A stretch of 47,350 nt of DNA from a virus. The notes under the pieces were generated by a model. The model made no database searches. It saw only the letters and a list, made by a program, of their open reading frames with translations, and was not told the origin of the DNA. This document shows positions 19,564 through 45,722 of the stretch, piece by piece; the first letter of the stretch is position 1; every line of letters begins with the position of its first letter. The stretch spans positions 1 through 47,350 of IMG/VR virus record IMGVR_UViG_3300044823_000261; one strand, given 5' to 3'. The translations under genes and the position numbers were made by a program.

Positions 19564-19584
19564 CCGCTTCCTTGGCTGTACACT
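19564..19584 (+). promoter_or_regulatory. Late promoter motif, portal copy (leaderless)
   Basis: CCG (19564-19566), CTT, nine bases, TACACT (19579-19584), then exactly seven bases to the portal ATG at 19592. No ribosome site is present. The layout matches copies at 27658, 30153, 38056 and 45702. Confidence 0.6.
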
Positions 19585-19591
19585 GCCGCCG

Positions 19592-21520
19592 ATGGCCACG
19601 CAGACTAGCCCGATCTCCGTTTCCGCTCGTTCTTCAGTCCCTTCTTACGCAGGCCGGCCCGACTTGCCGATGCCTTGGGATAGGCTGGAGGGAGATGTCA
19701 TCGCCTGGGCTGATCGCGCCTTCCTTCAGGCTCGCTCTTCTGCCGCTTCCTCCCCCATCACCTCGCTGATCCCTCGCATTATCCAGTACCTTTCTGGCAG
19801 CCAGTGGCCGGCTCGTCCCACTGCCTACGGCAACTCGCGCCCCGTCACCAACCGAATGTTTCGCCAGTATTGGGAACTTGTCTCGCTCCTGACCGACGGT
19901 AAGCCCGAGCCTCAAATCCGCTGCTACGACACCGAAGACGGTTACAGCGAGACCCAGCGCCTCTTGACCTCTCTGCTCGAACCCTGGGCCGCCAATCCCT
20001 CCTTTCACGACGCTTTTCAGGACATCGTGGGGTTTGGACTCCTGGCTCATGGTGTTGGTAAGGTGGAATGGAACCGGCACCTCGCTGGAGGCTTGGGCGA
20101 CACCGCCCTCCTTTCGATCAACCCTCTCAATTTCTACAAGCTGGGTGCCAACGGCCCTTCGACTCCTATTCCTGAATGCGAATGCCTGATCGAGACACGC
20201 ACGGTAACGATCGAATCTCTGGCCCGCCGTTATGGCCGCGAGATGGTTCGGCTCATTAAACCTGACGCCTCCGCTTCCGCCTCGTCTGGGCCAATGCGGC
20301 CCTCGGGTACTTCCTCCGAGCAGTGGGGGAAATACTCGCCGCAGATGCAAGCGCTTATTGGCCGGGTGGCCGGAGCGAACGGCTTGACCAGCCAGAGTGA
20401 TCTTCTTTATCCCACGGTTGATGAGCGCATATTCTGGCTTCAGGACCCGGCCTTGAACGAATCCTCCACCACACGGCGAGTTGGAGGCCATGTCCGTAGC
20501 AAATCGGGAGAGATTGCCTGGGCCAACTGGAGCTACTGGGTCGAGCCCGGCCAGCCCCTTTTTCCCCGCGGTCGAGTCTTCTCCGTCGCCGGCGGCCGCG
20601 TAATGGAAGACACCTGCAATCCTTATTTTCACAATCTCGGCCCGGGGCCTTATGTGGAATTTCTTCCTCTGCGCACTCCTTGGCTGTCTCCCGCCTCGAT
20701 GTCACTGATGGGGAATCTTATTGGTCCGCAGGACATCCTGAATCGTCTGATGGCTGGGATGATAGAAACCATCAAGGCTGGATTGACGCCGACGATTATC
20801 ACCCCTACCGACGCCATCTCCCGCGCCGATCTCGACAACCTTTCGACCACCATCTCTGGTGGCAAGATCGAGTACAACGCGCTGCGGTCAGGCGGCCAGA
20901 TTCCGAAGTTCCGCGAGCAACCTCAATTCCCCACCGCGGCTATGAACATATATCAGAATGTGATGCGGGAGATGGACCAGACTACTGGCTCGGCAGCGGT
21001 GGACGCGGCTGCGCAGAAGGAGCAAATTCCCTCCCACGATACGATGGAGATGATTCAGAACTCGCGGTCGTCGATGGTCAGGCTTATAGGGAGGCGGTTG
21101 GAAGAGTTTATGAATAGGACTGGCCAGATGGTCGTCAGCAACATGCTGCAATACTATTCAATGGGCCACCGAACTGCAATTTTGGGTGAAAAAGGTATGT
21201 CGGGATGGGACTTTAATCCGATGTATGGAAGTCTTATGCAGCGCGGGATGGCGCCGGAGAAGTTCGTCAGGAAATTCCAATTCTCGATCCGACCCGGCTC
21301 GGCGCTCAGCTTTGACAAGGAGACTCGTGCGCAGATGGCTGTGGTGCTGGCGCGGCAAGGTGTGTTGTCGAATCAGCAGGTGCTGATTGCCCTCAATGCT
21401 GCGGGCGCGAACATTAATATTGGGGAGAACCAAAAACAGTTGCAGCAAGAAGCACTTCAAAAAATGGCGATTATGGCGCTAATGGGTGGGGGGAAGGGTA
21501 AAGGAAAGGGAGGGAAGTAG
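19592..21520 (+). CDS. Portal protein
   Basis: 642 residues located between TerL and the head genes. Segments typical of portal proteins of short-tailed phages are visible: PRIIQYLSGSQWPARPTAYG, NRMFRQYWELVSLLTDGKPE, GFGLLAHGVGKVEWN, GPYVEFLPLRTPWLSPASMS, and a long central stretch on MAGMIETIKAGLTPTI and QNVMREMDQTTGSAAVDAAA (the stem/wing helix region). The C-terminal 20 residues are Gly/Lys-rich. It forms the dodecameric DNA gate. The identification rests on length, position and motif-like composition, not on an alignment. Confidence 0.8.
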   Translation: MATQTSPISVSARSSVPSYAGRPDLPMPWDRLEGDVIAWADRAFLQARSSAASSPITSLIPRIIQYLSGSQWPARPTAYGNSRPVTNRMFRQYWELVSLLTDGKPEPQIRCYDTEDGYSETQRLLTSLLEPWAANPSFHDAFQDIVGFGLLAHGVGKVEWNRHLAGGLGDTALLSINPLNFYKLGANGPSTPIPECECLIETRTVTIESLARRYGREMVRLIKPDASASASSGPMRPSGTSSEQWGKYSPQMQALIGRVAGANGLTSQSDLLYPTVDERIFWLQDPALNESSTTRRVGGHVRSKSGEIAWANWSYWVEPGQPLFPRGRVFSVAGGRVMEDTCNPYFHNLGPGPYVEFLPLRTPWLSPASMSLMGNLIGPQDILNRLMAGMIETIKAGLTPTIITPTDAISRADLDNLSTTISGGKIEYNALRSGGQIPKFREQPQFPTAAMNIYQNVMREMDQTTGSAAVDAAAQKEQIPSHDTMEMIQNSRSSMVRLIGRRLEEFMNRTGQMVVSNMLQYYSMGHRTAILGEKGMSGWDFNPMYGSLMQRGMAPEKFVRKFQFSIRPGSALSFDKETRAQMAVVLARQGVLSNQQVLIALNAAGANINIGENQKQLQQEALQKMAIMALMGGGKGKGKGGK

Positions 21521-21522
21521 AG

Positions 21523-21705
21523 ATGCCATTCAAATCCAAAGCGCAGCAACGGCTCTTCTTCGCCAAGGAATCTCGTGGTGAACTCCCCCGTGGGACTGCT
21601 CATCGATGGGCCTCGGAAACTCCGAATATCCGTCGGCTGCCTAATCGAAAGCACAAACGCAAGTCCGCTGCTCGATCGCATCAGCGCAAGGAGACCCGTC
21701 GATGA
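21523..21705 (+). CDS. Small basic phage protein, 60 aa
   Basis: MPFKSKAQQRLFFAKESRGE then LPRGTAHRWASETPNIRRLP. The MPFKSKAQxRxxFA start and WAxETP-x-x-LP pattern is one I associate with many phages, always near head genes, with no known role. The end is K/R-rich. It follows the portal stop by two bases. Confidence 0.75.
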   Translation: MPFKSKAQQRLFFAKESRGELPRGTAHRWASETPNIRRLPNRKHKRKSAARSHQRKETRR

Positions 21706-21860
21706 AATCCCTCCAGACCAAGCGCAAGTTCTCCCGTGGCAGCCAGCGTAAGCCTGTTCGTTCCATCCTCGGTCGTGCCGGCGGCCCCAGTTCCCTCCGT
21801 CAAGCTGCCCGCCAATCGCAACGAATGCACTCGCGGCGGACTGGGTTTCGCGGTCTCTGA
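21702..21860 (+). CDS. Basic mini-protein, 52 aa
   Basis: The ATG overlaps the previous TGA. The sequence MKSLQTKRKFSRGSQRKPVR continues with SILGRAGGPSSLRQAARQSQ and RMHSRRTGFRGL. About a third of the residues are Arg/Lys. Possibly DNA-condensing or packaged with the genome (inference). Confidence 0.55.
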   Translation: MKSLQTKRKFSRGSQRKPVRSILGRAGGPSSLRQAARQSQRMHSRRTGFRGL

Positions 21861-21864
21861 AGAG

Positions 21865-21893
21865 TTGACATTCCGACAATTTACCTTTCTACT
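21865..21893 (+). promoter_or_regulatory. Sigma70-like promoter candidate
   Basis: TTGACA (21865-21870), 17-base spacer, TCTACT (21888-21893). It lies 90 bases upstream of the 21-residue mini-gene and could boost scaffold and capsid expression. Confidence 0.4.
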
Positions 21894-21982
21894 GTCTCCG
21901 ACAGGCAGCAATGCCTACCCGATGGTGGAGGCCACCGTTACCAAAACCCCGTTACACGTCCTTACGGAAAGGAGATTTCACC

Positions 21983-22048
21983 ATGCCTCGTCATCGTGTA
22001 AAGCGGACTGTCAAGCGTGAAGCGAAGCGCAAAGCCAAGCGCGCCTAG
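21983..22048 (+). CDS. Lys/Arg-rich mini-protein, 21 aa
   Basis: MPRHRVKRTVKREAKRKAKR and a final Ala. It is preceded by GGAAAGGAGATTTCACC, a textbook ribosome site, and has its own promoter candidate and a downstream stem-loop. Its length is below most gene finders' limit. It is the fourth most basic product in the head cluster; a role in DNA condensation or as a scaffold-binding peptide is a guess. Confidence 0.5.
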   Translation: MPRHRVKRTVKREAKRKAKRA

Positions 22049-22079
22049 TTTCACCAAGCCTCGAAAGAGGTCAACCCTG

Positions 22080-22099
22080 GTGGCCGGGTAACCGGCCAC
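22080..22099 (+). other. Perfect stem-loop with GTAA loop
   Basis: GTGGCCGG and CCGGCCAC pair perfectly (8 bp) around a GTAA tetraloop, 44 bases before the next ATG. No T-run follows, so it is more likely an RNA-stability, processing or pausing element than an intrinsic terminator. Confidence 0.5.
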
Positions 22100-22143
22100 T
22101 GGAAATTTCATAACTTTATCGCCCAAGAAGGAGAATCCATTCC

Positions 22144-22365
22144 ATGTCCACCGATACAGCCTCCGTTGAAAAAGGCAATCCTCGTGACGATCGCAGTCTC
22201 GAAGTCAGCTACGGCAAGCCGATCCCTCAGCCTAAGATGAAAAAGGGTGATTTCGTGGCTTTTGGCGAACTGGCTGGCTCAGAATCTGCCGCTCCCTCCG
22301 TCTCCGGCGCGCGCACCGGCACCCATTTTGTCGAATCCATCGACGCTGCTGAGAAGAACCTGTAA
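22144..22365 (+). CDS. Hypothetical protein, 73 aa
   Basis: MSTDTASVEKGNPRDDRSLE, with AAGAAGGAG upstream. Hydrophilic, with a short beta-like block (MKKGDFVAFGELAGSE). Function unknown; located in the scaffold/capsid operon. Confidence 0.65.
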   Translation: MSTDTASVEKGNPRDDRSLEVSYGKPIPQPKMKKGDFVAFGELAGSESAAPSVSGARTGTHFVESIDAAEKNL

Positions 22366-22405
22366 CCAGCGGGCCAGTAGACCAGCAGAAAGGAACTGAC
22401 CCGCC

Positions 22406-22816
22406 GTGGCCACCTCTCCCTTACCATCTTCGTCCGCTGCCATGCAATCCGGCAGCCCCACTGCGCCTCCCAACTTCTATGCCCAGGCCGCCACCGCTCA
22501 ACCAGTGGCCGCTGGCCAGCCCGCCGCTGCCGAAGACACCAAGAAATTCCGCACCGCGATGGAAAAGCTGCTCATGATCTTTGACAAGATGGAGAAGCTG
22601 AAGCCCAACGGGATTGATGTGTCGAAGAAAATCAAGTCCGTGGCCGACTCGTTGAAGGATTTGCGCAATGAAGTCTTTGAAGGCGAGGAAAGCGAAGGCG
22701 GGGATGGCACGGACACCGACATCGGCAGTTCCGCCGCGGCAGGTAACGCGGCTGCCGGAGCTTCACCCCCTCCTCCCCTGGCGGCAACCGGCGGCGTGGC
22801 CGGAACCGGAGCTTAG
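22406..22816 (+). CDS. Low-complexity head-region protein, 136 aa
   Basis: GTG start with AAAGGAACTG upstream. Pro/Ala/Ser-rich ends flank a helical core (KKFRTAMEKLLMIFDKMEKL then SKKIKSVADSLKDLRNEVFE). The layout (disordered ends, central coiled coil) is common in scaffold-type or minor head proteins. Function not established. Confidence 0.6.
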   Translation: MATSPLPSSSAAMQSGSPTAPPNFYAQAATAQPVAAGQPAAAEDTKKFRTAMEKLLMIFDKMEKLKPNGIDVSKKIKSVADSLKDLRNEVFEGEESEGGDGTDTDIGSSAAAGNAAAGASPPPPLAATGGVAGTGA

Positions 22817-22817
22817 T

Positions 22818-22835
22818 TTGAATAATCGGTAAACG
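22818..22835 (+). promoter_or_regulatory. Late promoter motif, scaffold copy (partial)
   Basis: TTG (22818-22820), nine bases, TAAACG (22830-22835). It matches the spacing of the late motif, but the CCG block is absent. The scaffold gene starts 30 bases downstream with its own ribosome site. Confidence 0.35.
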
Positions 22836-22865
22836 CTAACCCACCCTACCCCAAGGAGACTCATC

Positions 22866-23630
22866 ATGCCCGAAATTACCAACGAACTCGACGACATTCT
22901 GAACAGCTTCTCGGAAGTTGATCGGCCTGCCATGCGCGAAGCTCTTGCTCGCAACCCCAACGCCCAGACTCTGCTGACTTCCCGCGAAACCGTCTACAAG
23001 GCTTTTGTGGATGGTGACCCGGTGAGGCTGGCGGCGGCGACGGCAACTGCGGTTCCTGCTGCTGTAGCCACGGGCAATCCCACCCCCGCTATAGGCATTG
23101 GCCTCGATCAGATCAACGCCCTCTTGAACGAACGAGTGAACTCTATCTACTCCTCGCCGCAATTCGCCTCTGCCGTCGATGCCTTGGCCGAGAAGAAAGC
23201 CCAAGCCCTTTTTGCTGTCGAGCGCACTCAGATCATTGGTCGCGGGGCGGCTATTGCGGATGAAATCTACACCATTCGTGCCACTCATTCGCGTGAGTTC
23301 GGTGAAGAACTGGATCGAGCCACGTTTGAAGCTTATTACGCAGCCGAGGGCCCGAAACACGGCAATCTTTTGACCGACACCTACAACGCTTTCGTGGGCG
23401 AGAAGAGGATTGCGAAGCGGATCGCCGACGGGGTGCAGGCTGGTCTCGCTGCCCAGGCTACCGCAATTGTTCCCGGTTCCGCTGTTCCCGGCGTGGGCAA
23501 CCCAATGGCGCCCAATTTCGTGGATTTCAATGTGAAAACAATCAGCCCCAACGCGGTGGCCGTTCCCTCCGCCGACGCCGATAAGGCCGCGCAGGCTTTC
23601 GCGTCGATGCGACAGGGATGGACGCAGTAA
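22866..23630 (+). CDS. Putative scaffold protein, 254 aa
   Basis: Starts MPEITNELDDILNSFSEVDR after CCAAGGAGAC. A helical, acidic N-terminal half, an Ala-rich linker and repeated helical segments (FASAVDALAEKKAQALFAVE, RATFEAYYAAEGPKHGNLLT) end with KAAQAFASMRQGWTQ, a short basic/aromatic tail as in many scaffold proteins that contact coat. It lies directly before the major capsid gene. The call is positional plus composition. Confidence 0.6.
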   Translation: MPEITNELDDILNSFSEVDRPAMREALARNPNAQTLLTSRETVYKAFVDGDPVRLAAATATAVPAAVATGNPTPAIGIGLDQINALLNERVNSIYSSPQFASAVDALAEKKAQALFAVERTQIIGRGAAIADEIYTIRATHSREFGEELDRATFEAYYAAEGPKHGNLLTDTYNAFVGEKRIAKRIADGVQAGLAAQATAIVPGSAVPGVGNPMAPNFVDFNVKTISPNAVAVPSADADKAAQAFASMRQGWTQ

Positions 23631-23646
23631 GGCAGGTAATATAACT

Positions 23647-23699
23647 GGGCAAACAGGCAAAACAGGAACATTGAAATTTGACGTTCCGCTTGTTTGCCC
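23647..23699 (+). other. Long stem-loop between scaffold and capsid genes
   Basis: GGGCAAACA (23647-23655) pairs with TGTTTGCCC (23691-23699), and an inner GGAAC (23665-23669) pairs with GTTCC (23683-23687). CCTTTACTTGTTTTCG follows, giving a terminator-like but mixed tail. It probably tunes the ratio of scaffold to capsid transcripts by partial termination or RNA processing. Confidence 0.5.
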
Positions 23700-23753
23700 C
23701 TTTACTTGTTTTCGAGACGGGTGAATCCCGAACCTTGAAGGAGGGCATATCCA

Positions 23754-24740
23754 ATGCCAGTGACAGGTAACCAGGCCATATACAACGATTTGACGTCATT
23801 CACCTACGCCTATATCATCCCCCGCGTGCAGGATGTTTACTTTCGGGTGTCCACGATATTCCCGATTCTGTTCCGTCCGGACAACTTCAAGACCTTCTCG
23901 GGCTATCAGATTCAGGTTCCGATCCAGTACGCTCCCTTGAAGGGCGGACCCACCGTCGATGGTGGCGTGTTCGATATCTCCTCGTTCGAGACCGACACGG
24001 CGATGATCTTCACGCCCAAGGAGTACTACACCAACGTTACCCTCAGCCGGCAGCGGATCGCCTTGAACCAGGGTAGCCAGGCGGCGATGTCCTATGTCCA
24101 GGTGAAGACAACCAACCTCTACCAGTCGATGATGCAGTATCTGGCTCAGGACACCTTCCGCGACGGCCAGGGCACGGTCAGCGGGGTCAATGCCCTCGAC
24201 GGCTTGCTTGCTGCCAATGATTCTGGCACCAATTACCCGCAGTATGGCCAGCTCGCCCGCGCCGCTATCGGCACCGGCGCCAATGCCGGGATCGCCGGCT
24301 ACTACCAGAATGTCAATTCGCCTCTGACCACGCAGATCCTTCAGTACGCTTTCGGCCAAGCCTCCTTCGGCAACACTCAGCCCAACCTGGCTTTCATGAC
24401 TCAGGCCATTTGGGACACCATGTGGCTGAGGATGTTCCCGGCACAGCGCGTGATGGACGATGATCCGGGCGTGCTCAGCTTTGGCGCGACCTCGCTGAAG
24501 TTCTACGGCAACAAGCGGTTGCTGGTTGACCAGTATGTCCCCACCGGCGACGTTTTCCTGAACCGGGACGAATTCCTTCAGTGCTACGTCACCGAGGACA
24601 AGCTCTTCCAGTTTGGCTTCACCGGATTCAAGGAACTGCCGGAGTCGCTCGATGGCGCCGGCCAGACCGTCTTCCTTGGCGATATTGTCAACGCTCAGCC
24701 CAGAGTCAGCGGCGTGCTGACCAACGTCCAGAACACTTGA
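23754..24740 (+). CDS. Major capsid protein
   Basis: 328 residues, located after the scaffold with GAAGGAGG upstream. Features expected of a HK97-fold coat: an N-terminal arm (FTYAYIIPRVQDVYFRVSTI), an extended strand region (TVDGGVFDISSFETDTAMIF), then VTLSRQRIALNQGSQAAMSY, a conserved-type NLAFMTQAIWDTMWLRMFPA and the C-terminal SLKFYGNKRLLVDQYVPTGD followed by VFLNRDEFLQCYVTEDKLFQF. The best-placed and most abundant-type structural gene. Identification is by position and fold-like pattern. Confidence 0.85.
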   Translation: MPVTGNQAIYNDLTSFTYAYIIPRVQDVYFRVSTIFPILFRPDNFKTFSGYQIQVPIQYAPLKGGPTVDGGVFDISSFETDTAMIFTPKEYYTNVTLSRQRIALNQGSQAAMSYVQVKTTNLYQSMMQYLAQDTFRDGQGTVSGVNALDGLLAANDSGTNYPQYGQLARAAIGTGANAGIAGYYQNVNSPLTTQILQYAFGQASFGNTQPNLAFMTQAIWDTMWLRMFPAQRVMDDDPGVLSFGATSLKFYGNKRLLVDQYVPTGDVFLNRDEFLQCYVTEDKLFQFGFTGFKELPESLDGAGQTVFLGDIVNAQPRVSGVLTNVQNT

Positions 24741-24872
24741 TGCCCTGGATTAACTGGGGCCATTGGACAGCTTAACCGTCTGATTGGCCCTCCGTAACGC
24801 AATAGGTTTGCTCCCACCTTATCGGAGCCAAGTGACGGGTCATTAAGAGTCGTCCCAACGGAGGAAACAGTC

Positions 24873-25508
24873 ATGTACGGTCCTTACCCTCGTTTTGCTA
24901 ATCCGCAAACTCAACTCGACGCCACCGCGAAGAACGCGCTGGGCTTCGTTTATTCGCCGCCTTGGGGCCAGTACACTGCGACCGGCAGCGGTCCTGTGTT
25001 CTCAACCACTGCCGGCGCGTCAACCCCCGGCTTCGGCGCGCCCGGAGTTTTCAAGTATGTCTATTTCTATGACGCCAGCACACTGACAGGCACCTTGCAG
25101 GCAACTCCCGCCCCGGTTTACTGGATTGACGAGAGCCTCACCACGGTCACCGGCAACGCAGCCAACGCATACTCGACCACTGGGGGCGCCTTAATCGCCG
25201 GCTACCTGATGCCGAATGCAACTGCTTTGGGAACCAACATGACCGGTGCGCAGTGGTATGGGCAGCTTTCGCAATCCTACTGCTGGATTCAGGTTGCCGG
25301 ATTCTTGTCTGGCGCTTTGGCCCCGACCACGCAGACGGCCGCCGGCATTGGCAACGCTATTGCCGGTCTAACCACTGGCTCGTGGGCATCAGTCGTGGCC
25401 ACTACAGTCCCCGCTTCTGGGCGTTTGCTTGGCGTTCAGATGTCATCCATTTCCAACTCTGCCTGCGATGTACTGGTCGGCGGCGCTACAACCTTCTGGG
25501 GCAGTTAG
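24873..25508 (+). CDS. Structural protein, 211 aa (capsid decoration or minor head)
   Basis: MYGPYPRFANPQTQLDATAK, with GGAGGAAACAG upstream. It is Gly/Ala/Thr/Ser-rich and predicted all-beta (TATGSGPVFSTTAGASTPGF), lacking enzymatic motifs. It immediately follows the capsid gene, where decoration and stabilising proteins usually lie. Family not recognised. Confidence 0.6.
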   Translation: MYGPYPRFANPQTQLDATAKNALGFVYSPPWGQYTATGSGPVFSTTAGASTPGFGAPGVFKYVYFYDASTLTGTLQATPAPVYWIDESLTTVTGNAANAYSTTGGALIAGYLMPNATALGTNMTGAQWYGQLSQSYCWIQVAGFLSGALAPTTQTAAGIGNAIAGLTTGSWASVVATTVPASGRLLGVQMSSISNSACDVLVGGATTFWGS

Positions 25509-25548
25509 TCCACAGATTCGACTTCAACCAAGAAGGAGGAAACACCCA

Positions 25549-25902
25549 ATGTCGATTACGTGGACCGAAAATACCGATTCCCACGCCATGCTCGGCCCCA
25601 GTGTCCAGTTGCAGCAGAACAAGGCCAGCTTTGGCGCCAGCGACTATGTGGCTGGAGGGTACGCCGTTTATCCCAGTGCCTTTGGGCTGGCGGTTATCCG
25701 CGCGTTGATTCCAGTTGGATTCAGTTCCATTGCGGCCGGCACGCCTGGTAGCGTTATCTGGGAGGCTATCCAGCCTGTGACTGCTGGACCTGCCGCGTCG
25801 AATCCCTGGTATCTGAAAGCGCTGACCGACGTGTTCGCTGAAACTGCATCCAACACCAACTTTGCCGGCGGAACGGCGGATTTTATGGCGATTGGATTTT
25901 AG
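25549..25902 (+). CDS. Structural protein, 117 aa
   Basis: The ATG at 25549 follows AAGAAGGAGG. It starts MSITWTENTDSHAMLGPSVQ, then LQQNKASFGASDYVAGGYAV, an all-beta-like sequence. A small head protein next to the decoration-like gene; function unknown. Confidence 0.6.
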   Translation: MSITWTENTDSHAMLGPSVQLQQNKASFGASDYVAGGYAVYPSAFGLAVIRALIPVGFSSIAAGTPGSVIWEAIQPVTAGPAASNPWYLKALTDVFAETASNTNFAGGTADFMAIGF

Positions 25903-25948
25903 GTCTTCGCCAAATCTTCCTATCGTCAGTTCGTGCGTTTGCCCTGAT

Positions 25949-26074
25949 TTGTCGATTTGGTGGTTTGCCGCTCCACCTCCCGCTGCCTGTTCCGCCGCTG
26001 TCGCTCTAGTCCTTGGGGGAGTACATGGCGGGGCAGGCATTTTTTGGTTAGGGATGTCAGGGAGGGCTAGCTAA
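25949..26074 (+). CDS. Possible small membrane protein, 41 aa
   Basis: A TTG-start frame between two structural genes ends with TAA directly before the next ATG. It contains a hydrophobic stretch (ACSAAVALVLGGVHGGAGIF) like a single membrane helix. No ribosome site precedes the TTG, so this may not be expressed. The rest of the 172-base gap holds no other feature. Confidence 0.25.
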   Translation: MSIWWFAAPPPAACSAAVALVLGGVHGGAGIFWLGMSGRAS

Positions 26075-27097: not shown

Positions 27098-27131
27098 TAG
27101 CATAGGTAGACTAGCGGAAAGGACTAATTCA

Positions 27132-27275: not shown

Positions 27276-27652
27276 TCTGTGACTGCACCCACGATTCTTC
27301 GGCTTACTCTGTCTGCCTGACGCCTGCCGGTCCACGCACACGCTGCCGGGCCTGCCGTTTCCCGCCCTCGCACCAATCTGTCGCTAACCCTTTTGCGAGC
27401 TTAACACTCACCCATGCGCACGATGCCTGCGGCAACTCGATCGAGGTCACATCCCTCCGCCAGCTTCAGATTGCCGAGAAGCAGTACAAATTCCGCTCCC
27501 TGGTTGCCAACGAGCGCGAAGCCGACTTCGACCGGCCGCCGCAGCATCGCCAGAAGGATCTGTTTGAGGCTACCAGCGAGGCCGGCGGGTGGCTTCATCC
27601 GGAGATTGTTGAACCGATGATTCGAGAGCTTCGTGAGTGCGGTGAAATTTAG
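27272..27652 (+). CDS. Cys-rich hypothetical protein, 126 aa
   Basis: MICDCTHDSSAYSVCLTPAG then PRTRCRACRF: several Cys and a CRAC pair suggest a small metal site. The rest is helical, ending LHPEIVEPMIRELRECGEI. Translationally coupled to the basic mini-protein. Function unknown. Confidence 0.6.
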   Translation: MICDCTHDSSAYSVCLTPAGPRTRCRACRFPPSHQSVANPFASLTLTHAHDACGNSIEVTSLRQLQIAEKQYKFRSLVANEREADFDRPPQHRQKDLFEATSEAGGWLHPEIVEPMIRELRECGEI

Positions 27653-27657
27653 CTTTT

Positions 27658-27678
27658 CCGTTGAATTTGCTGTACACT
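27658..27678 (+). promoter_or_regulatory. Late promoter motif, copy before 27700 gene
   Basis: CCG (27658-27660), TTG, nine bases, TACACT (27673-27678), followed by a GGAGG ribosome site and ATG at 27700. The spacing is identical to the other copies, but this transcript has a short leader. Confidence 0.6.
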
Positions 27679-27699
27679 ACGCTGCGATGGAGGTTACTC

Positions 27700-28092: not shown

Positions 28093-28098
28093 CAGAAA

Positions 28099-28662: not shown

Positions 28663-28665
28663 CCT

Positions 28666-29355: not shown

Positions 29356-29410
29356 TCTCTTGCCATGACTTCCCGATACGGTGTACCCTTCTCGAAGGAG
29401 AACCCCCACC

Positions 29411-30139: not shown

Positions 30140-30152
30140 ATTGAGGGACTTA

Positions 30153-30173
30153 CCGTTGAATCGCTGGTAGACT
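30153..30173 (+). promoter_or_regulatory. Late promoter motif, copy before 30181 gene (leaderless)
   Basis: CCG (30153-30155), TTG, nine bases, TAGACT (30168-30173), then seven bases to the GTG start at 30181. No ribosome site lies in between, so the mRNA would be leaderless. Confidence 0.6.
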
Positions 30174-30180
30174 GCATCGC

Positions 30181-31805: not shown

Positions 31806-31815
31806 GAGGAGCGCG

Positions 31816-36278: not shown

Positions 36279-36284
36279 GAATAT

Positions 36285-36362
36285 TTTCCTTGCTTTTGTA
36301 CACCAGAAGGTGTAATCTTCATCTCGTACCTCAATCCCCTCCCCCCAAGGAGTTTTTCGATG
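36285..36362 (+). repeat. Promoter-leader direct repeat, copy 1
   Basis: A roughly 80-base segment running from the promoter box through the ribosome site to the ATG. It is about 80 percent identical to 36742-36821. It includes CTTGCTTTTGTACAC, GTGTAATCTTCATCTCG and CCAAGGAG. Confidence 0.75.
36288..36316 (+). promoter_or_regulatory. TACAC-N-GTGTA promoter box, copy 2
   Basis: CCTTGCTTTTG then TACACC (36299-36304), AGAA, GGTGTA (36309-36314), AT. The inverted repeat extends to 6 bp here. TTGCTT and TGTAAT could be hexamers 15 bases apart. Confidence 0.5.
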
Positions 36363-36740: not shown

Positions 36741-36741
36741 C

Positions 36742-36821
36742 TTTCCCCTTGCTTTTGTACACTGTTCCGTGTAATCTTCATCTCGTACCCAAATCCCCCT
36801 CTCCCAAGGAGCTTTCCGATG
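36742..36821 (+). repeat. Promoter-leader direct repeat, copy 2
   Basis: The second copy of the 80-base promoter-to-ATG segment. Both copies drive unrelated small genes, so the regulatory segment seems to have been copied as a unit. Confidence 0.75.
36749..36775 (+). promoter_or_regulatory. TACAC-N6-GTGTA promoter box, copy 3
   Basis: CTTGCTTTTG, TACAC (36758-36762), six bases, GTGTA (36769-36773). The six-base spacing is the same as in the groES copy. Confidence 0.5.
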
Positions 36822-37193: not shown

Positions 37194-37202
37194 GGAGGGA
37201 CG

Positions 37203-37331: not shown

Positions 37332-38050
37332 ACGAAATCCTCTCCACGCCTGACTGCGATCTTGCCGATCCGATTGGCCTGTGTGCGCAAGGTTCTTTCC
37401 GCTGGGGCCGCCTGGAGGCCATCCTTTACGACCCTCGCCGAGCGGATGTGTTTGCTCAGCCCTTCTTGTTTTCTCTGTATGAGAAAACCAGGTTATCGGG
37501 TCAGCGCCATCCTCTCCCTCTTAACATCGACAACCGCGCCAGCCTTGGCCCGCTGCCTGTCCTCTTTTGCGGCATGACCAATCTTGGCCCCGATGCTGTC
37601 ATGGCCTACCTCTCCCAGCGCGCGGTCTGCGTCGTTGGTGAGTGGCGTGGGGAAGTTTTCGCCCCCCTCGGTTACTGCTTTCCCTCGACCGTTCCCACCG
37701 TTTCCCCCCTCTCGCTGACTGGCCAGCCCTCCAATTCCGTCTTCGCCGGCTACACCATCTTTCAGGAAGCCTGGCGCACTCCGCAGCAACAAGTCCTGAT
37801 GTATCTCGGCCTCGCGTGGTTGTTCCACACCTTCAAGCTGGCCGCGCTGCACGGTTCCCGCTACTCGACCAACCACCTAACCCGGCGCTGGACCAAGCAG
37901 TTTGGGTTTCAGGATTTGGGCGTGATGCCGTTCTGTATGGTTGGGGAGCCGGGAGGGCCGCTGGTGTCCGGCATCTTCTCGACGTTGCTACGGGTTGACT
38001 TCGATGCCAGACTGCGCGAAGTGCTGGAGAGGGTTCGATTGCAGTCCTAG
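37322..38050 (+). CDS. GNAT-fold-like protein, 242 aa
   Basis: Starts MSLDEILSTPDCDLADPIGL (a GTG at 37313 is also in frame). The C-terminal part, GYTIFQEAWRTPQQQVLMYL then LAWLFHTFKLAALHGSRYST and KQFGFQDLGVMPFCM, follows the acetyltransferase-like layout ending in a GF-x-x-x-G motif. A GNAT-like protein often sits near ejection genes in short-tailed phages. No clear acetyl-CoA loop is visible, so it may be structural. Confidence 0.45.
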   Translation: MSLDEILSTPDCDLADPIGLCAQGSFRWGRLEAILYDPRRADVFAQPFLFSLYEKTRLSGQRHPLPLNIDNRASLGPLPVLFCGMTNLGPDAVMAYLSQRAVCVVGEWRGEVFAPLGYCFPSTVPTVSPLSLTGQPSNSVFAGYTIFQEAWRTPQQQVLMYLGLAWLFHTFKLAALHGSRYSTNHLTRRWTKQFGFQDLGVMPFCMVGEPGGPLVSGIFSTLLRVDFDARLREVLERVRLQS

Positions 38051-38055
38051 CCCTT

Positions 38056-38076
38056 CCGTTGAAACGCTGATAGACT
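38056..38076 (+). promoter_or_regulatory. Late promoter motif, copy before 38102 gene
   Basis: CCG (38056-38058), TTG, nine bases, TAGACT (38071-38076). A leader with AGGGAGGG follows, then TTG start at 38102. Same spacing as other copies. Confidence 0.6.
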
Positions 38077-38101
38077 GTCCCCGCCAAGGGAGGGCAGTGC
38101 T

Positions 38102-38734: not shown

Positions 38735-38748
38735 GGGGAGAGGGCAGT

Positions 38749-41169
38749 ATGACAGGAGAAGTACCGCAAGTTTCATGGCAGGACATGCAGCCGGGGGGGG
38801 CAGGACTGCCCACCGCTGACTCGGCAGACTCCGCTCCTGCCCTTCCATCTCTTAATCCTACGGACTCTCCCTATAAACCGCTTTCCCTCCCACAGCAGAC
38901 GGCGCCTACTACCGCCCCTCAGTCCCAGCAGCAAGACCAATCGCAAAATCTTGGTGCTGTCTCTCATGCCGGAGCCGCCGCCTATATGATTGATAAGGTT
39001 CTTAAAGGCGCATCGCAGGGGTATGCCCAAGGCCAGCAATATGCTGCCGACCAGTACAACAAGAAATTGGCAGCCACTCAGACCCTTTACAACGATCAGG
39101 CGGCCCAACTATACGATCTGGCGAAGTCAGGCCGCGCTGGAACATTCTCAGGGCCACCTGGGAAGGATGGCAAACCAACATTCGTGCCTTCAGACGAGTT
39201 TAATCAAGCCAAAGGCCGAATGCTGGTGGCCTGGCAGGCAATGATGCAGACAGTTGGCCAGAGGATTCCGCAGCCAAAAAAAAGTAAAGGGAAGGCGGGG
39301 GGACAGGACACGGGGGTGGGGTCTGGTGGTGCGAGCGGAGCAGCCGGTGGTGATCCCAACGAACTTCTCCAGCAGGCTCTGAATCACAAAGGCGACCCCC
39401 AAGGTTCGTTGGTTGCCACTTACCGGATTGGTTTGGCAATTGGGCCGCCAGTTATTCACCAAATTGGTGGTTTCTTGACGCCAGCGTATATTGCTCAACA
39501 GCAGCAAGGAGCGCAGACGGCAGCAACAACTTCTACGACGGCCGGGGTTACGGCCGGAAATCAACTGACCGATCAGCAAGCCCTGGCTGAGCGCAACCGC
39601 GTGCTGGCAATTCCTGAAAGCACACGGACGGAGGCAGATAAGCAGAAGCTCTCCAGCGCTGAAGACATTCTCGCTCCGCAAGCCAAAGCAGCGCCCGCAA
39701 ACTACAAGCAATTCATCTCTGCGGACGGAAAGACGCGCCGGTGGTTTGATGTTACTAAGCCGATTGAACAGGGATGGTCGGCGGCGCCAGTTGGAGCCGG
39801 ATCGAATCGCGCACCGAAAGAAGGCTGGACGAAGCAAGGCGGCCAGTGGGGTAGCCAACTCTATGACCCGGAGACCAACCAGCCTATTCCCGACACGTTC
39901 AATTCAAGCAAGGTTCCACCTGGTAACGTCCTGTCCATGTTCCCTCAAGAGCATACGCTGACTGGAAAGTTCGTAGACAGCAACGGTCTTTTGACGACTT
40001 ACTCGACGACAAACGAGAGCCACAGGGATTTGCCTGGAGGGATTGGATCGGGTGGAGCAGGAGCGTCAGATTCAGTAACGCCACATGCGGCAGAACACAA
40101 TGCGTCCGCGTCTCCGTCAACGTCCGGCGATACAGGCTATCAGGCTTGGGTCAAAAAAAATGGCTTCAGAGAAGACCCCACCTATGACCTGTACGGAGCC
40201 TATAAGGCTGGGCTGCAACCCGCAGCCAATGGCCATTTGAGTGATGAATTCAAGTTAGCGACTCATCCGACCTACTCCACAGATAGCAAATATTCGCAGC
40301 AGCCTGGTGCGCCTCCGGCAGGAGAGTGGGTCGCTCCCGCGGCGGGTGAAAATGCCCACGGAAAAGATGATCATTGGACTTTCAAGGCTACTGACACGAA
40401 TGTTAAAAATGCGGGTGGTGTGGCTGGATTGAAGTCTTATTTTGATCGAATAGAACCTGGGAATACACTCATCCTTCCAAACGGAGAATCTTATACGGGA
40501 AAATCGACAGGTCGGCAGCATTCTTCTACGACCCCTGCCCCTGCTAAGCCTCCCGCTGTCCCTGCCCCTGCCCCTGCTAAGCCTCCCGCTGTCTCTGCGC
40601 CCCCATCTACCGGTGCGGGCACCAAAACCCACGTCATCGGCTATGTTGGTTCCAAGTCCTACAAAGACTTGGTAAACACCGCTGACAAAGCCTCCGCCGT
40701 CAGCTCCTCCCTGGCCCGCGAATGCAAACAAGCACTTGCCGATGCCAAGTCCGTCCTAGCCAACCCCGCTGATGGCCCAGCCAAGATGGGACTGGTAGCC
40801 AGTTATCTGCGTAATGTTGTCGGCGCCCACTCGGCTGCCGGCGCGGGCGGGGCGTCTGTCCGCATTACCAACAACGAATGGAATTCCGCGATCCAAACCC
40901 GTTCCTCCTGGGCCGGTCTTCTTTCTCACTTTGACACCCATGCCAAGGGAGGGGATGTCATACTGACTGGAATCACCATCACCCCCAAGCAAGCTCTAGG
41001 CATGGCACGAGAGATTCAGCAGCGGGCAGTAGGCGCACAGACCGAGCACGGCACCATGGCAGCGGCGGCCGAGGACCAGCGAAAGAAGGATATGCATGCG
41101 GGTGGGTTGGTTCCTCCGGCCACACCTTCCACAACCTTTAACTGGCAGGATCATCCGGTGGCTCGATAA
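38749..41169 (+). CDS. Putative ejection/internal virion protein, 806 aa
   Basis: MTGEVPQVSWQDMQPGGAGL, a low-complexity N-terminus, then GVSHAGAAAYMIDKVLKGAS-type helical sequence and two copies of PAPAKPPAV in the linker near residues 605-625. The C-terminal part is helical, with TKTHVIGYVGSKSYKDLVNT and a run of Ala-rich helices. It is likely to be packed in the capsid and delivered with DNA. No lysozyme or transglycosylase motif is visible. Confidence 0.55.
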   Translation: MTGEVPQVSWQDMQPGGAGLPTADSADSAPALPSLNPTDSPYKPLSLPQQTAPTTAPQSQQQDQSQNLGAVSHAGAAAYMIDKVLKGASQGYAQGQQYAADQYNKKLAATQTLYNDQAAQLYDLAKSGRAGTFSGPPGKDGKPTFVPSDEFNQAKGRMLVAWQAMMQTVGQRIPQPKKSKGKAGGQDTGVGSGGASGAAGGDPNELLQQALNHKGDPQGSLVATYRIGLAIGPPVIHQIGGFLTPAYIAQQQQGAQTAATTSTTAGVTAGNQLTDQQALAERNRVLAIPESTRTEADKQKLSSAEDILAPQAKAAPANYKQFISADGKTRRWFDVTKPIEQGWSAAPVGAGSNRAPKEGWTKQGGQWGSQLYDPETNQPIPDTFNSSKVPPGNVLSMFPQEHTLTGKFVDSNGLLTTYSTTNESHRDLPGGIGSGGAGASDSVTPHAAEHNASASPSTSGDTGYQAWVKKNGFREDPTYDLYGAYKAGLQPAANGHLSDEFKLATHPTYSTDSKYSQQPGAPPAGEWVAPAAGENAHGKDDHWTFKATDTNVKNAGGVAGLKSYFDRIEPGNTLILPNGESYTGKSTGRQHSSTTPAPAKPPAVPAPAPAKPPAVSAPPSTGAGTKTHVIGYVGSKSYKDLVNTADKASAVSSSLARECKQALADAKSVLANPADGPAKMGLVASYLRNVVGAHSAAGAGGASVRITNNEWNSAIQTRSSWAGLLSHFDTHAKGGDVILTGITITPKQALGMAREIQQRAVGAQTEHGTMAAAAEDQRKKDMHAGGLVPPATPSTTFNWQDHPVAR

Positions 41170-44030
41170 TGGCCGATCAAGATTCCAGCACCGGCACCGT
41201 TACGCTGCTCGATCCGACCGGCACCCCACGCCAGATCCCTCTTGCTCAAAAGGATATAGCGATGAAGGCAGGTGGCAAGCCGGTCATCAAAATGCTAGAT
41301 CCTCAGGGGACAGCACGATGGGTACCCGAAGATCAGCAGGAAGCAGCAATCAAGGCTGGCGGAAAGCTGGCTACTTCCGCAACCGCGGCTAAACCTGTTA
41401 CTACACCCACCGCTCCCGACACCCAGTTCGTTACCCCCGGTTTTGGCAAATACGAGATGCGCGGCCCAGACGGCAAACCAGGCATGGTCTCCTACGATCA
41501 CGTCCTTGATCAGATTCACAAGGGAGCCAGCTTTGTGAACCGAACAGGGCAGGGAAGTCTATCCACATTCGCCGCTGACCACGCTGCCGACCCGCAGAAT
41601 GCAGAGAATCGCTCCGACGCCACAATCAAGGCTATGGCCAGTTGGAATCCTCTGAAATATGTGGCCTCTATTGGCGCGGGTGTGCAGGACGTACTGGAGG
41701 GGTTGGGCGGAGAAGCGGCAAAGACTCTAACAGCATTCGACAAGCCAGCTACATCTCGCGGGGAAACCAGCCTGCAACTGGCTGCCGAGACTGGAGCGCA
41801 GAATTTCAACCAGGGAGTCGGTGCGCTTGGAGAGCAAGTCGGCGAACTAGGCGCGGCGCCGGAAGCCAACGTGGCTAAGCTAGGTAAAATAGCCGAATTG
41901 CCCAAGCTCGCCAAAACCGGGATAAAGGTGGCCGAGCAGGGTCTGCGCGCGGCGACAGAGCAAGGAACTCAAGCTTACGTCAAGTCGAGTGGAGACACTG
42001 GCCAAGCGGCTTCAGCAGCAGAATGGGGAGGCCCTCTTGGAGCCGTCTCGGCCTTCACTGGACCGGTCTTCAAGAAGGTAGGCAACTTCGGGTACGAGGT
42101 AGAGAAGTTCTTCAACCGGGTCAGCGATATCGATACTGGCAAGCTGGTGCGTGAAACGGCCAAAGCAAATGAAAAGATCGCTCAGGAAGCGGCGCTAGTC
42201 CGTGCTGAAAACGCAACCCGAGTCGCCGATGCGGAAAAAGCCTACAAAGAGAAGGTGGCGACGGCCAAAGCGAAATATGACGATGCCGTTGCGGGCAGGA
42301 AAAGCGCGGAAGAGAAGGCTCAACTGAAACAGCAGCACACAGAAGAACAATCCCACATCGATCACGATCATGAAGTCGAAAAAGCGCGGTTGGCGCACGA
42401 GAAAGTTTTGGCTGACCAGCAAGCACTGGAAGCACAAAAAGGGGTTGCCCGACGGACTGAACTGGAAACTCGTGGCAGGCTCGCCATGCGTATGCGAACG
42501 ATTCAGGACGCGGCCAAGGCGTTTTTCAACAAGAACTACACTGAAATTGAGGAGGCTGTCGATGGGCCAGAAGACAAGCCCAGCGGCCGAGCCGCCCCGT
42601 GGGAAGAGATGGCTAGAGTCGTAGAAGAGGCTCTGCCAAAAATCGAAGGGTCTGATAAATCTGTCAAGCCCTTCAAGGATATTTTAGAAAAAGCTGAACG
42701 CTTTTCCGCGGACGAGGAATCACCTCCAACTGCCGCGCAAGACCTTATCGATCACACTGGGTACACCAAGGCTGCGTGGTCTACGCGAACCCCAGAGGAA
42801 AAGGCGGAGATTTGGAAAGGCATTAAAGAAGCGTGGGGACCGGAACAAAACGGGGCTAATTTCAAAACGTTGAGGGGCTATTATTCTGAAGCGGGAAAGT
42901 TGCTGGCTAACGAATCTACGCCCCCTGACGTAAAACAAGCACTGGTGAAATTTCGTGAGGGTATTGAAGACCTTCAGCAGGGAATGGCAAAAGATGCAGG
43001 CGTGGGACAGCGCTATAAACTCCTCCGCTCCCAATACAAGAACTATGCCGAAGGCTTCCTCGACTACCACGGGACAAAAGGAGAAGCGTCCGCAGTCGCC
43101 AAAGCCGTTCGCAAGGGCGACGCCTTCAATGCGACGAAAGACTTCCCGAAGATGCAGCCAGAGGAGATTTCCAACGTAAAGCAGATCCTTGCCGGCAGTC
43201 CCGCGGACGCATCTACTCAGTTCGTTGAGGGAGATATCGTCACTCCAGGAGGCAAGGAGGAACCTGCTGCGAGTTACCGGCGCGACTCGACGAAGTTGGT
43301 AGACAACTACGTTGCCGCCAACAGAGAAGCAGAAAAACTAGAAGCAAAGGCGACCAGGGCCAAACCTGTGGGAGAATTCGTTCCTCCTGAATATAAGCCG
43401 CCGAAGCCTCTAGTGCCGAAGGACCAGAAGCCGATCGGCGAGTTTAAGCCCCCTGAATATAAGGAGCCAAAGCTGCCCAAAGAACCGCAGCCGACGGTAA
43501 TGACGCCAGAAAAGTTGAAGGAGGCTAAACAGGATGCCCTCAACAAGATGTCAACGATTGTGGGACGGTTTGGCATATACATGGCCGCAGGAGGCTTGGT
43601 TGGAGGCGTGTACCAGCTAATCAAGACGGGTGATCCCTTCAAAGCAGCATCAGGAGCGGGAGAAGGTGTTGCCGTAGGCTTCGCTGGCGGGGCTGTGGCT
43701 CCCTATCTCATGGCACGTCTAATCGACCGTGACGATGTGATTCAAGCTCTGTCAAAGGTGACACATCAGGATCTGGTTCGCTTGGCTAAGATGCCCTTCA
43801 AGGAGAGAGCAGAAATTTCCGAGTCGCTCAAGCAACTTGCGGAAGAAGCTGAGGCCAAGGGAAAGCTGTCGAAACCATCGCCATGGTTGAGAATCCTGGG
43901 CGGAACTGTGGCAAGGAAGGCGGTCGAGACGGGCAAGGCCAATTCGCAGACACCAGAAACCGAACTGGAGGATCTTGACAAACTGAACAGTGAACTCGAC
44001 ACACCAACCACCCAAGGAGCCCAACCATGA
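41169..44030 (+). CDS. Putative ejection/internal virion protein, 953 aa
   Basis: Starts MADQDSSTGTVTLLDPTGTP, where the ATG overlaps the previous stop. Two related N-terminal repeats (DPTGTPRQIP, DPQGTARWVP) are followed by a long coiled coil (about 330-450, EKAYKEKVATAKAKYDDAVA), a helical middle, GEFVPPEYKPPKPLVPK with a repeat GEFKPPEYKEPKLPK, and a hydrophobic segment near 795-860 (FGIYMAAGGLVGGVYQLI and VAVGFAGGAVAPYLMARLI). This fits a large ejection protein that could form a membrane channel. No peptidase or lytic motif was recognised. Confidence 0.6.
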   Translation: MADQDSSTGTVTLLDPTGTPRQIPLAQKDIAMKAGGKPVIKMLDPQGTARWVPEDQQEAAIKAGGKLATSATAAKPVTTPTAPDTQFVTPGFGKYEMRGPDGKPGMVSYDHVLDQIHKGASFVNRTGQGSLSTFAADHAADPQNAENRSDATIKAMASWNPLKYVASIGAGVQDVLEGLGGEAAKTLTAFDKPATSRGETSLQLAAETGAQNFNQGVGALGEQVGELGAAPEANVAKLGKIAELPKLAKTGIKVAEQGLRAATEQGTQAYVKSSGDTGQAASAAEWGGPLGAVSAFTGPVFKKVGNFGYEVEKFFNRVSDIDTGKLVRETAKANEKIAQEAALVRAENATRVADAEKAYKEKVATAKAKYDDAVAGRKSAEEKAQLKQQHTEEQSHIDHDHEVEKARLAHEKVLADQQALEAQKGVARRTELETRGRLAMRMRTIQDAAKAFFNKNYTEIEEAVDGPEDKPSGRAAPWEEMARVVEEALPKIEGSDKSVKPFKDILEKAERFSADEESPPTAAQDLIDHTGYTKAAWSTRTPEEKAEIWKGIKEAWGPEQNGANFKTLRGYYSEAGKLLANESTPPDVKQALVKFREGIEDLQQGMAKDAGVGQRYKLLRSQYKNYAEGFLDYHGTKGEASAVAKAVRKGDAFNATKDFPKMQPEEISNVKQILAGSPADASTQFVEGDIVTPGGKEEPAASYRRDSTKLVDNYVAANREAEKLEAKATRAKPVGEFVPPEYKPPKPLVPKDQKPIGEFKPPEYKEPKLPKEPQPTVMTPEKLKEAKQDALNKMSTIVGRFGIYMAAGGLVGGVYQLIKTGDPFKAASGAGEGVAVGFAGGAVAPYLMARLIDRDDVIQALSKVTHQDLVRLAKMPFKERAEISESLKQLAEEAEAKGKLSKPSPWLRILGGTVARKAVETGKANSQTPETELEDLDKLNSELDTPTTQGAQP

Positions 44031-44098
44031 ACTTTTCCTTTCGCAATACCCTCAACGAAAAAGAAAATCAAAACCTTAGTAAAAAGAGAAGCTTATGA
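44027..44098 (+). CDS. Tiny coupled gene, 23 aa
   Basis: MNFSFRNTLNEKENQNLSKK then RSL. It has AAGGAG just before the ATG, and four-base overlaps with both neighbours, so it may simply transfer ribosomes to the next gene or make a small peptide. Confidence 0.4.
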   Translation: MNFSFRNTLNEKENQNLSKKRSL

Positions 44099-44532
44099 AA
44101 AAGAAGAGCACGTTGGTAGCGCATGACCCTTTGGCGTTCCTTAAACCTTCGCCAAACGCTGAAACGGAATCAGAAAAGGATTTTGCTTTTGAGTGTGTAG
44201 CTTTAGCTGAAGAGGCCGGTGGCGGGGCGTCACGGGGTTTCTTTGAAGACTTCATGGTTGAAGACGAACAGAGTCCTCCGATACGACCCGGATGGATGTT
44301 TGTCATTTACAAGGATGGCAAGTACAAATGGATGCCCCTTGAAGAGTACGAGGCGAAATTTGGCCACGTTGTTACACCCCCGTTCCGTACGAAAGTAGAA
44401 CGAGACAGATTTCGCGCCCTGCAGTTTCTAAGTCACCTTCCGTTTTGGCGTTTTCTTTCAGAAACTACGCAGAACGAGATATTTGCTGTGGTGGACGCCA
44501 ACCTCGTAACAAAGAACGGTTGGTTTAACTAA
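44095..44532 (+). CDS. Hypothetical protein, 145 aa
   Basis: MKKKSTLVAHDPLAFLKPSP, then ESEKDFAFECVALAEEAGGG and an aromatic block (PGWMFVIYKDGKYKWMPLEE). Function unknown. Ends with a helix (LPFWRFLSETTQNEIFAVVD). Confidence 0.6.
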   Translation: MKKKSTLVAHDPLAFLKPSPNAETESEKDFAFECVALAEEAGGGASRGFFEDFMVEDEQSPPIRPGWMFVIYKDGKYKWMPLEEYEAKFGHVVTPPFRTKVERDRFRALQFLSHLPFWRFLSETTQNEIFAVVDANLVTKNGWFN

Positions 44533-44547
44533 GTAAGAGGTCTCATA

Positions 44548-44772
44548 ATGATCTATCGTCTGATCGACATCTCTCCCGACCTGGCTGTCTGCCCCTGCCC
44601 AGGCATGGTCGTGCGCCGGGTCAACGATGACCAGTGCATCCTGTTCACGCCAGGGCAGTCGGCGTTGGAGGGGTTTGTGGTCGATGCGCCTTGGGATGAG
44701 GTGGTGGGCAATCTCAATGATGAATTTGAGAGAGCGATCGAGGATGCCGATCTCGACGAGGAGGAAGACTGA
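44548..44772 (+). CDS. Hypothetical protein, 74 aa
   Basis: MIYRLIDISPDLAVCPCPGM followed by VVRRVNDDQCILFTPGQSAL and an acidic C-terminus (FERAIEDADLDEEED). AAGAGG lies upstream. Function unknown; the stop overlaps the KTSC gene start. Confidence 0.6.
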   Translation: MIYRLIDISPDLAVCPCPGMVVRRVNDDQCILFTPGQSALEGFVVDAPWDEVVGNLNDEFERAIEDADLDEEED

Positions 44773-44993
44773 TGGCCTACAAATCTGTTTCAATTCGGCC
44801 CAGCACAAATCTAGCCAGTGCGGATTACGATGAAGCCACGCAGGATCTTCTGGTTACTTGGTCCCGTGATGGAAGCCAAGGGGTTTATCATGGTGTGGAT
44901 GCCAGAACGGTGGACGAGTTGAGCCGCGCGCCGAGCGCTGGCAGATTTATCCACTACTTCTTGAAGGGTGTGTACCCTTACGAGAACGTTTGA
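44772..44993 (+). CDS. KTSC-domain protein, 73 aa
   Basis: MAYKSVSIRPSTNLASADYD then LLVTWSRDGSQGVYHGVDAR followed by LSRAPSAGRFIHYFLKGVYP. The order SxxLxxxxYD, L-x-V-x-W-x-x-G, YxGV and APSxGxFxxxxxKxxY matches the small KTSC domain seen in phages and bacteria and associated with nucleic-acid enzymes. Function not established. Confidence 0.75.
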   Translation: MAYKSVSIRPSTNLASADYDEATQDLLVTWSRDGSQGVYHGVDARTVDELSRAPSAGRFIHYFLKGVYPYENV

Positions 44994-45368
44994 TCAGGCG
45001 ATGATAACGGCTGCGACCAGCGGGTCGTACGCGCCTGTTGGACCGTAAATACTCTGATTCGTAATTGCCCTCTGGATGAAACTACACACAGGACAGGTCA
45101 GTAAACTCACCAACTGCGGCGGCGACTGGGTGTAATCCACTTCCTGTACTATATTGAACTCGTGAATCGGATGCAAACATCCAATTCCAATCCAAGAGCC
45201 GTAAGCAAAGACCATGGACCCTGCTCCGGGCCAACTTTCCCAAGGCTCCTCTTGGGGCAAGGCGGGAGTCACCGCAGTAAATGGCCCTCCATCTTGGCGG
45301 AAGAAGGGAACGCCATTGAGCTTCCCGCCACCGTACATCGTCCCTACTTCCCAAGAATTTGCAGGCAT
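44994..45368 (-). CDS. Conserved-type phage protein with CPVC motif, 124 aa
   Basis: The minus-strand ATG at 45368 is preceded by GGGGAGGTAGGGGG. It reads MPANSWEVGTMYGGGKLNGV, then PWESWPGAGSMVFAYGSWIG and VSLLTCPVCSFIQRAITNQS. The CPVC pair and nearby His may bind metal. It is transcribed against the late genes, and its stop meets the KTSC gene stop with no terminator between. Confidence 0.65.
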   Translation of the reverse strand: MPANSWEVGTMYGGGKLNGVPFFRQDGGPFTAVTPALPQEEPWESWPGAGSMVFAYGSWIGIGCLHPIHEFNIVQEVDYTQSPPQLVSLLTCPVCSFIQRAITNQSIYGPTGAYDPLVAAVIIA

Positions 45369-45373
45369 CCCCC

Positions 45374-45643
45374 CTACCTCCCCAGCATTTGCCGGAGTCC
45401 CTCGTTGACCATCTCGTTCAGCCACGTAGACCATCCCTCGCGCCACTGGGACCCTAGTGCCGCCGAGCACTGATCTTCCAGAGCCAACTTCAAGTCCGGA
45501 TCGAGCCGAAAGCTCTCCTGCCCGGCGAACGACCGGAAAGCCTGAGCGAGATTGACGGGTGCGGAGGGGACGGGCTTGGGCTCGGGGGGTTGGACAGGGC
45601 GCAGATTGGCGGGCATTGGGAACTCGTTGGTGGCTAAGGTCAT
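45374..45643 (-). CDS. Small DNA-binding-like protein, 89 aa
   Basis: The ATG follows AAGGAGTC. A Pro-rich N-terminus leads to ESFRLDPDLKLALEDQCSAA and GWSTWLNEMVNEGLRQMLGR, the strand-helix-helix order of ribbon-helix-helix repressors. A divergent promoter region lies upstream, so self-regulation and control of the adjacent gene are plausible (inference). Confidence 0.6.
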   Translation of the reverse strand: MTLATNEFPMPANLRPVQPPEPKPVPSAPVNLAQAFRSFAGQESFRLDPDLKLALEDQCSAALGSQWREGWSTWLNEMVNEGLRQMLGR

Positions 45644-45664
45644 GGAGGGACTCCTTCGCCTTCG

Positions 45665-45722
45665 AGTATACCCCCATTCTCACCGTCCCGCCATAGACTT
45701 ACCGCTTGCTTGCCGCTAAACT
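45665..45722. promoter_or_regulatory. Divergent promoter region
   Basis: Minus strand: TATACT (45670-45665), 22 bases before the 45643 start. Plus strand: late motif CCG (45702-45704), CTT, nine bases, TAAACT (45717-45722), then seven bases to the ATG at 45730, a leaderless layout. Confidence 0.55.

Follow-up and report, generated by a model that had tools for sequence, protein, structure and literature searches.

Introduction

In T4 middle promoters, MotA binds a box whose centre lies at -30, at a distance of 12 ± 1 bp from the -10 element, while AsiA remodels sigma region 4 (PMC2988021, PMC7403470). In Thermus phage P23-45, the host sigma-A polymerase reads middle and late genes, and gp39 displaces sigma region 4 (PMC7403470). 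Leaderless genes in which TANNNT precedes the start codon by approximately 12 bp have been described in Deinococcus, Actinobacteria and Acidobacteria (PMC12340547, PMC3160421); TACACT is the commonest -10 form at leaderless genes of D. radiodurans (PMC12340547), and leaderless genes, present in several phyla, make up ~13% of genes in Acidobacteria (PMC3160421).

The putative promoters of an uncultured soil phage described here appear unusual in design yet resemble these known phage ways of redirecting host RNA polymerase. Like T4 middle promoters, they combine a sigma-70 -10 with an element near -30, 12 ± 1 bp away, that overlaps or replaces the -35 (PMC2988021), and by analogy they may work as the T4 middle class does. 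However, the MotA box is wwwTGCTTtA as against TAGNCTTACCGCT here, a block of different length in which CTT stands 3 bp more distant from the -10, and the genes served by the soil-phage motif are those of the virion, often with a predicted leaderless mRNA, instead of middle genes. A sequence-based Pfam search of most proteins of the best relative, G008, detected no homologue of MotA or AsiA, and it is for this reason, together with the different box, that we do not file the motif as a member of the T4 class. With leaderless bacterial genes the phage shares TANNNT, including its TACACT form, 6–7 bp to the start and the lack of a Shine-Dalgarno sequence; it differs in that these features belong to one phage promoter family whose upstream block is long and conserved, and in that the same promoter also serves genes with a Shine-Dalgarno. 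P23-45 offers a parallel in the host polymerase reading middle and late phage genes, but its promoters are of the extended -10 class, whereas the soil-phage sites conserve the upstream block and not a TGN preceding the -10.

Results

The phage and its relatives

The window (the whole stretch of DNA analysed, 47,350 bp) is a linear IMG/VR virus record of an uncultured soil phage, in which our own gene calls, made by codon usage, include GroES, GroEL, glycosyltransferase, aminotransferase, TerL, portal, capsid and tail genes. Searches with the capsid and portal proteins recovered IMG/VR contigs, many of them fragments; the window belongs to a clade of uncultured ~93-kb phages. Neither protein had a match in the GenBank phage collection searched, and the large terminase gave only weak matches there (≤25% identity among the matches listed). 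A prophage and host search of GTDB genomes, run with one capsid sequence and with an alignment, found no capsid relative, and no tRNA genes were found that might hint at a host. G008 (93,616 bp) is probably complete, because its two ends fall in the same ORF with overlapping translations; no exact terminal repeat was detected in it.

Cpn10 (GroES-like) and Cpn60 (GroEL-like) proteins are both encoded at 6487–8929 of the window, with homologues in G008 and G003/G004. The TerL gene of G008 (82689–86201; L038) contains an insertion of ~398 aa after residue 222 that is also found in G011 and is missing from the window copy; it begins with Cys and ends with HN before Ser, and in sequence looks like an intein. 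DNA methyltransferase genes (N6/N4 and C5) lie between TerL and portal in G008 (86234–87538 and 88376–89872; L038), unlike the window, which has none there.

A recurrent motif before virion genes

The original prediction was of a recurrent late promoter, CCGYTKN9TANACT, with exact copies at 19564, 27658, 30153, 38056 and 45702. All five are present on the + strand, which is the virion-gene strand, and all are intergenic. Dinucleotide shuffles contained a mean of 0.09 copies, with 0/100 shuffles reaching five, and the reversed pattern, used as a control, had 0 matches. Orthologous regions of relatives yielded a fuller motif, TAGNCTTWCCG, 12 bp, TANACTG. The block upstream of the -10 is not just CCG: it spans 11–13 bp, TAGNCTTWCCG(CT), and at aligned sites TAGNCTTACCG ends 12 bp from TANACT. 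The sites in the window, with a further, degenerate one before the major capsid gene, are as follows.

19556..19585, + strand: promoter copy 1; TAGCCTTTCCG at 19556–19566, 12 bp, -10 TACACT at 19579–19584; start of the portal gene ATG 19592, 7 nt after the -10, no Shine-Dalgarno
23678..23707, + strand: hybrid promoter of the major capsid gene; -35 TTGACG, then a 17-bp spacer with TTCCG at its 5′ end, then TTTACT; start ATG 23754, Shine-Dalgarno present
27650..27679, + strand: promoter copy 2; TAGCTTTTCCG, -10 TACACT at 27673–27678; start ATG 27700, 21 nt after the -10, with GGAGG before it
30145..30174, + strand: promoter copy 3; GGGACTTACCG, -10 TAGACT at 30168–30173; start GTG 30181, 7 nt after the -10, no Shine-Dalgarno
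38048..38077, + strand: promoter copy 4; TAGCCCTTCCG, -10 TAGACT at 38071–38076; start TTG 38102, with GGGAGGG
45694..45723, + strand: promoter copy 5; TAGACTTACCG, -10 TAAACT at 45717–45722; start ATG 45730, 7 nt after the -10, no Shine-Dalgarno
45730..46068, + strand: 112-aa Cys/His-rich protein, predicted product of the presumed leaderless mRNA from copy 5

A matrix covering the motif positions and flanks, applied to 12 genomes at a threshold of 12 bits, gave 22 matches, against a null of ~0.6 per Mb in Markov shuffles. All 22 were on the virion-gene strand and all 22 were intergenic, in genomes that are ~70–91% coding; the motif is thus not as common inside genes as upstream of them, whereas equal frequency had been named as speaking against a promoter. 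To avoid circularity, a second matrix was trained on relatives only and run over both strands of the window, where it placed the five copies at ranks 1–5, all intergenic. Rank 6 (15.8 bits) was the degenerate site at 23678, absent from the original list and also found de novo, and the next match (8.2 bits) lay inside a gene. When built from the window only, the matrix gave its top ranks to 4/6 G008 sites and 5/6 G012 sites, and the others came further down. An unbiased motif search, as originally proposed, was run in ZOOPS mode on upstream regions of G000, G008 and G012, and its top motif was TaGcCTTACCGCT...TA.ACTG. The partial copy listed at 22818 (TTGAATAATCGGTAAACG) was rejected: it has no CCG, falls outside the top matches of the out-of-sample matrix, and relatives showed no counterpart before that gene.

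A second element, the palindrome TTACAY-N6-RTGTAA, occurs in 17 copies in 12 genomes versus ~0.2 expected, almost all intergenic. It is found in the window at 36299–36315, 36758–36774 and 6507–6523, in G008 at 65800 and 88364, and several times in G012 and in the distant relatives G007 and G009; it is possibly an operator for a dimeric regulator.

Conservation among relatives

As far as their contigs extend, G012, G001, G002 and G011 have the motif at genes orthologous to those of the window. G008 has six copies, all confined to the stretch from portal to the tail region: one before portal, four at spots further along the virion genes, and one before the 45730-type gene. Neither its replication arm nor its GroEL/glycosyltransferase arm has a copy. 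Site by site, copy 1 has a counterpart before the portal gene in G001, G002, G008, G011, G012, L092, L094 and L101. Copy 2 has orthologous sites in G008 (5068), G012 (17088) and G001 (17276), and diverged ones in G003 (29199) and G005 (12197). Copy 3 recurs in G008 (7689) and G012 (19844), the N-termini of the three proteins aligning from the start codon, copy 4 in G012 (32385) and G008 (16808), and copy 5 in G008 (25113, spacing 7 nt) and G012 (40595, spacing 6 nt, GTG). For the 112-aa Cys/His-rich protein, too, the N-termini in G008 and G012 are conserved from the start codon onwards. Before the capsid gene, close relatives have TTGACA or TTTACA, N17, TTKACT (TTTACA in G008), and the -10 of this promoter is weak.

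Before the portal and 27700-type genes of G005 the motif takes the diverged form TTGNCTTAACG, and before the 27700-type gene of G003/G004 the diverged form GTGCCTTTGCG. At the G003/G004 portal there is a reverse-oriented GGTAAGGC, which may be coincidence and was not used. The distant ~99-kb relatives G006, G007 and G009 have no such motif, and the unbiased search in them returned only Shine-Dalgarno, low-complexity or palindrome signals. Strict-motif matches in other IMG/VR contigs came as one copy each, on contigs with no homology to window proteins. Motif, strand, intergenic position and conservation together support the prediction of a recurrent late-gene promoter, where 'late' refers to the virion genes served, from which we infer the timing.

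Immediately 3′ of the copy-4 promoter, G008 has a gene for a GIY-YIG/NUMOD3 endonuclease (16841–17866; L034) with its ATG 8 nt past the -10; this gene apparently borrows the promoter.

Two classes of start codon

It had also been claimed that at 19584, 30173 and 45722 the start codon follows by exactly seven bases with no ribosome site, giving leaderless mRNAs. This spacing is exact, with no Shine-Dalgarno, at 19592 (ATG), 30181 (GTG) and 45730 (ATG), which accounts for 3/5 copies; at 27658 and 38056 the start lies 21–25 nt from the -10 and a Shine-Dalgarno is present, and leaderless mRNA is therefore not predicted for every copy. For the other three sites in the window, the spacing and absent Shine-Dalgarno do predict it. 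In the 21 sites tabulated from the window and relatives, the start codon falls 6–10 nt past the -10 with no Shine-Dalgarno in 13, and 14 nt past it, also with none, in one; the remainder have starts 17–30 nt past the -10, most with GGAG or similar. Short spacing and a missing Shine-Dalgarno recur together at orthologous genes in relatives, and short-spacing starts are credible because proteins of that class align from their first residues. At the usual -10 to +1 distance, we infer that mRNAs of this class would have leaders of 0–4 nt. A Shine-Dalgarno-like sequence is present at roughly two thirds of the genes of these phages, so that leaderless starts are not the rule here.

The -10, the -35 slot and the upstream block

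The -10 is conserved at T1, A2 and T6 of TANACT (~1.9 bits each over 18–20 sites) and, by its sequence, is of sigma-70 type. On inspection, neither TANACT nor the block fits the consensus forms of sigma-54 (-24/-12), sigma-28 or ECF factors. The first six bases of the block, TAGNCT, lie exactly 17 bp from the -10, the normal -35 position. The argument that a 12-base distance is unlike that of a -35 thus falls, as the full block begins with TAGNCT, and the geometry requires no new sigma. The slot is occupied by TAGNCT in the clade, TTGNCT in G005 and TTGACR in the capsid promoter; that it may behave like a -35 is suggested by the presence of TTGACR at the same 17-bp spacing in the capsid promoter, and by TTGNCTTAACG at the same two genes in G005. 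The unusual feature is the conserved TACCG(CT) following the slot; the middle of the motif is poorly conserved.

A candidate regulator

The window encodes one candidate regulator.

5880..6200, + strand: stand-alone sigma-region-4-like HTH protein, 106 aa

This protein passes Pfam Sigma70_r4 (25.0 bits versus a cut-off of 24.1) but comprises the region-4 HTH only; having no sigma region 2, it cannot be a full sigma. Its homologues are 69% identical in G008 and 44% identical in G003/G004, and none that is convincing was found in the motif-less G006, G007 and G009. It accompanies the motif in G000 and G008 and, in diverged form, in G003/G004; within the clade it is known from only three lineages. 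A single-sequence search for relatives of the HTH returned none; an alignment search returned six loci, and the relatives outside the clade are on contig stretches with no motif. The AlphaFold model (mean pLDDT 57) was too poor for a fold search.

Discussion

With moderate confidence, we favour a late promoter family read by the host housekeeping sigma-70-type RNA polymerase together with a phage-encoded or phage-induced factor that recognises the block. Each genome would have a family of approximately 5–6 such virion-gene promoters. Sigma region 2 would read TANACT in the usual manner, and TAGNCTTACCG(CT), at about -36 to -24, would replace or reinforce the -35 contact; once the early phase is over, the factor bound to it would steer polymerase to virion genes. 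For portal and several further genes, transcription would start on the start codon or a few bases from it, making the mRNA leaderless or leaving it an ultra-short leader; elsewhere it would start roughly 10–20 nt ahead of the start codon, which leaves space for a Shine-Dalgarno.

It is possible, but rather unlikely, that these are simply ordinary promoters of the host sigma-70 type, in which a weak -35 (TAGNCT) is combined with 17-bp spacing and a favourable spacer, no phage factor being involved and any late timing stemming from replication or read-through. The block could then be a variant -35 plus a spacer favoured by host sigma. TAGACT does match TTGACA at 4/6 positions in the correct slot, the capsid promoter has TTGACR there, the -10 is sigma-70-like, and Pfam scans of most G008 proteins found no dedicated sigma or polymerase. 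Nevertheless, the most conserved bases, CTTACCG, run 5 bp past the -35 hexamer into a part of the spacer that is normally not conserved, and canonical-type promoters elsewhere in G008 (TTGACA-N16/17-TAGTAT) have no block.

Recognition directed by a phage-encoded alternative sigma, or by the 5880 protein as the -35-reading part, is unlikely; the half of this proposal that concerns the 5880 protein overlaps the explanation we favour. The original prediction had suggested that a phage-encoded or modified sigma, perhaps this protein, reads the motif. A full phage sigma is improbable, as Pfam scans covering most G008 proteins detected no sigma region 2 and the 5880 protein has no region 2 either. 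The part of the suggestion that survives is the HTH as a possible reader: it passes the Sigma70_r4 cut-off and co-occurs with the motif in G000 and G008 and, in diverged form, in G003/G004, and although its relatives also sit on stretches with no motif, the 5880 protein is a plausible candidate for the factor reading the block in our preferred explanation. A more specific version, in which it displaces host sigma region 4 and so changes recognition from a 6-bp -35 to an 11–13-bp block, turning on virion genes, many of them leaderless, is quite doubtful.

Phages with their own polymerase typically use one long motif for late genes, as here, but a promoter for a phage-encoded single-subunit or multisubunit RNA polymerase is most improbable, given that Pfam detected no polymerase domain in the large G008 and window proteins scanned, that long ORFs of G000 and G008 have no DxDGD catalytic motif, and that the motif is poorly conserved in its middle and carries a -10 of sigma-70 type.

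These results provide a clean, predictive late-promoter motif for an uncultured soil phage lineage whose capsid and portal proteins have no close relative among the GenBank phages searched. Should the extra factor exist, the lineage would represent an independent version of the T4 solution, in which a phage element near -30 is combined with a host -10. If the 5880 protein does act in the manner outlined, many virion-gene mRNAs would be leaderless and would need no Shine-Dalgarno. Moreover, one promoter serving two classes of start, leaderless and Shine-Dalgarno, constitutes a natural test of the role of leaderless translation in infection.
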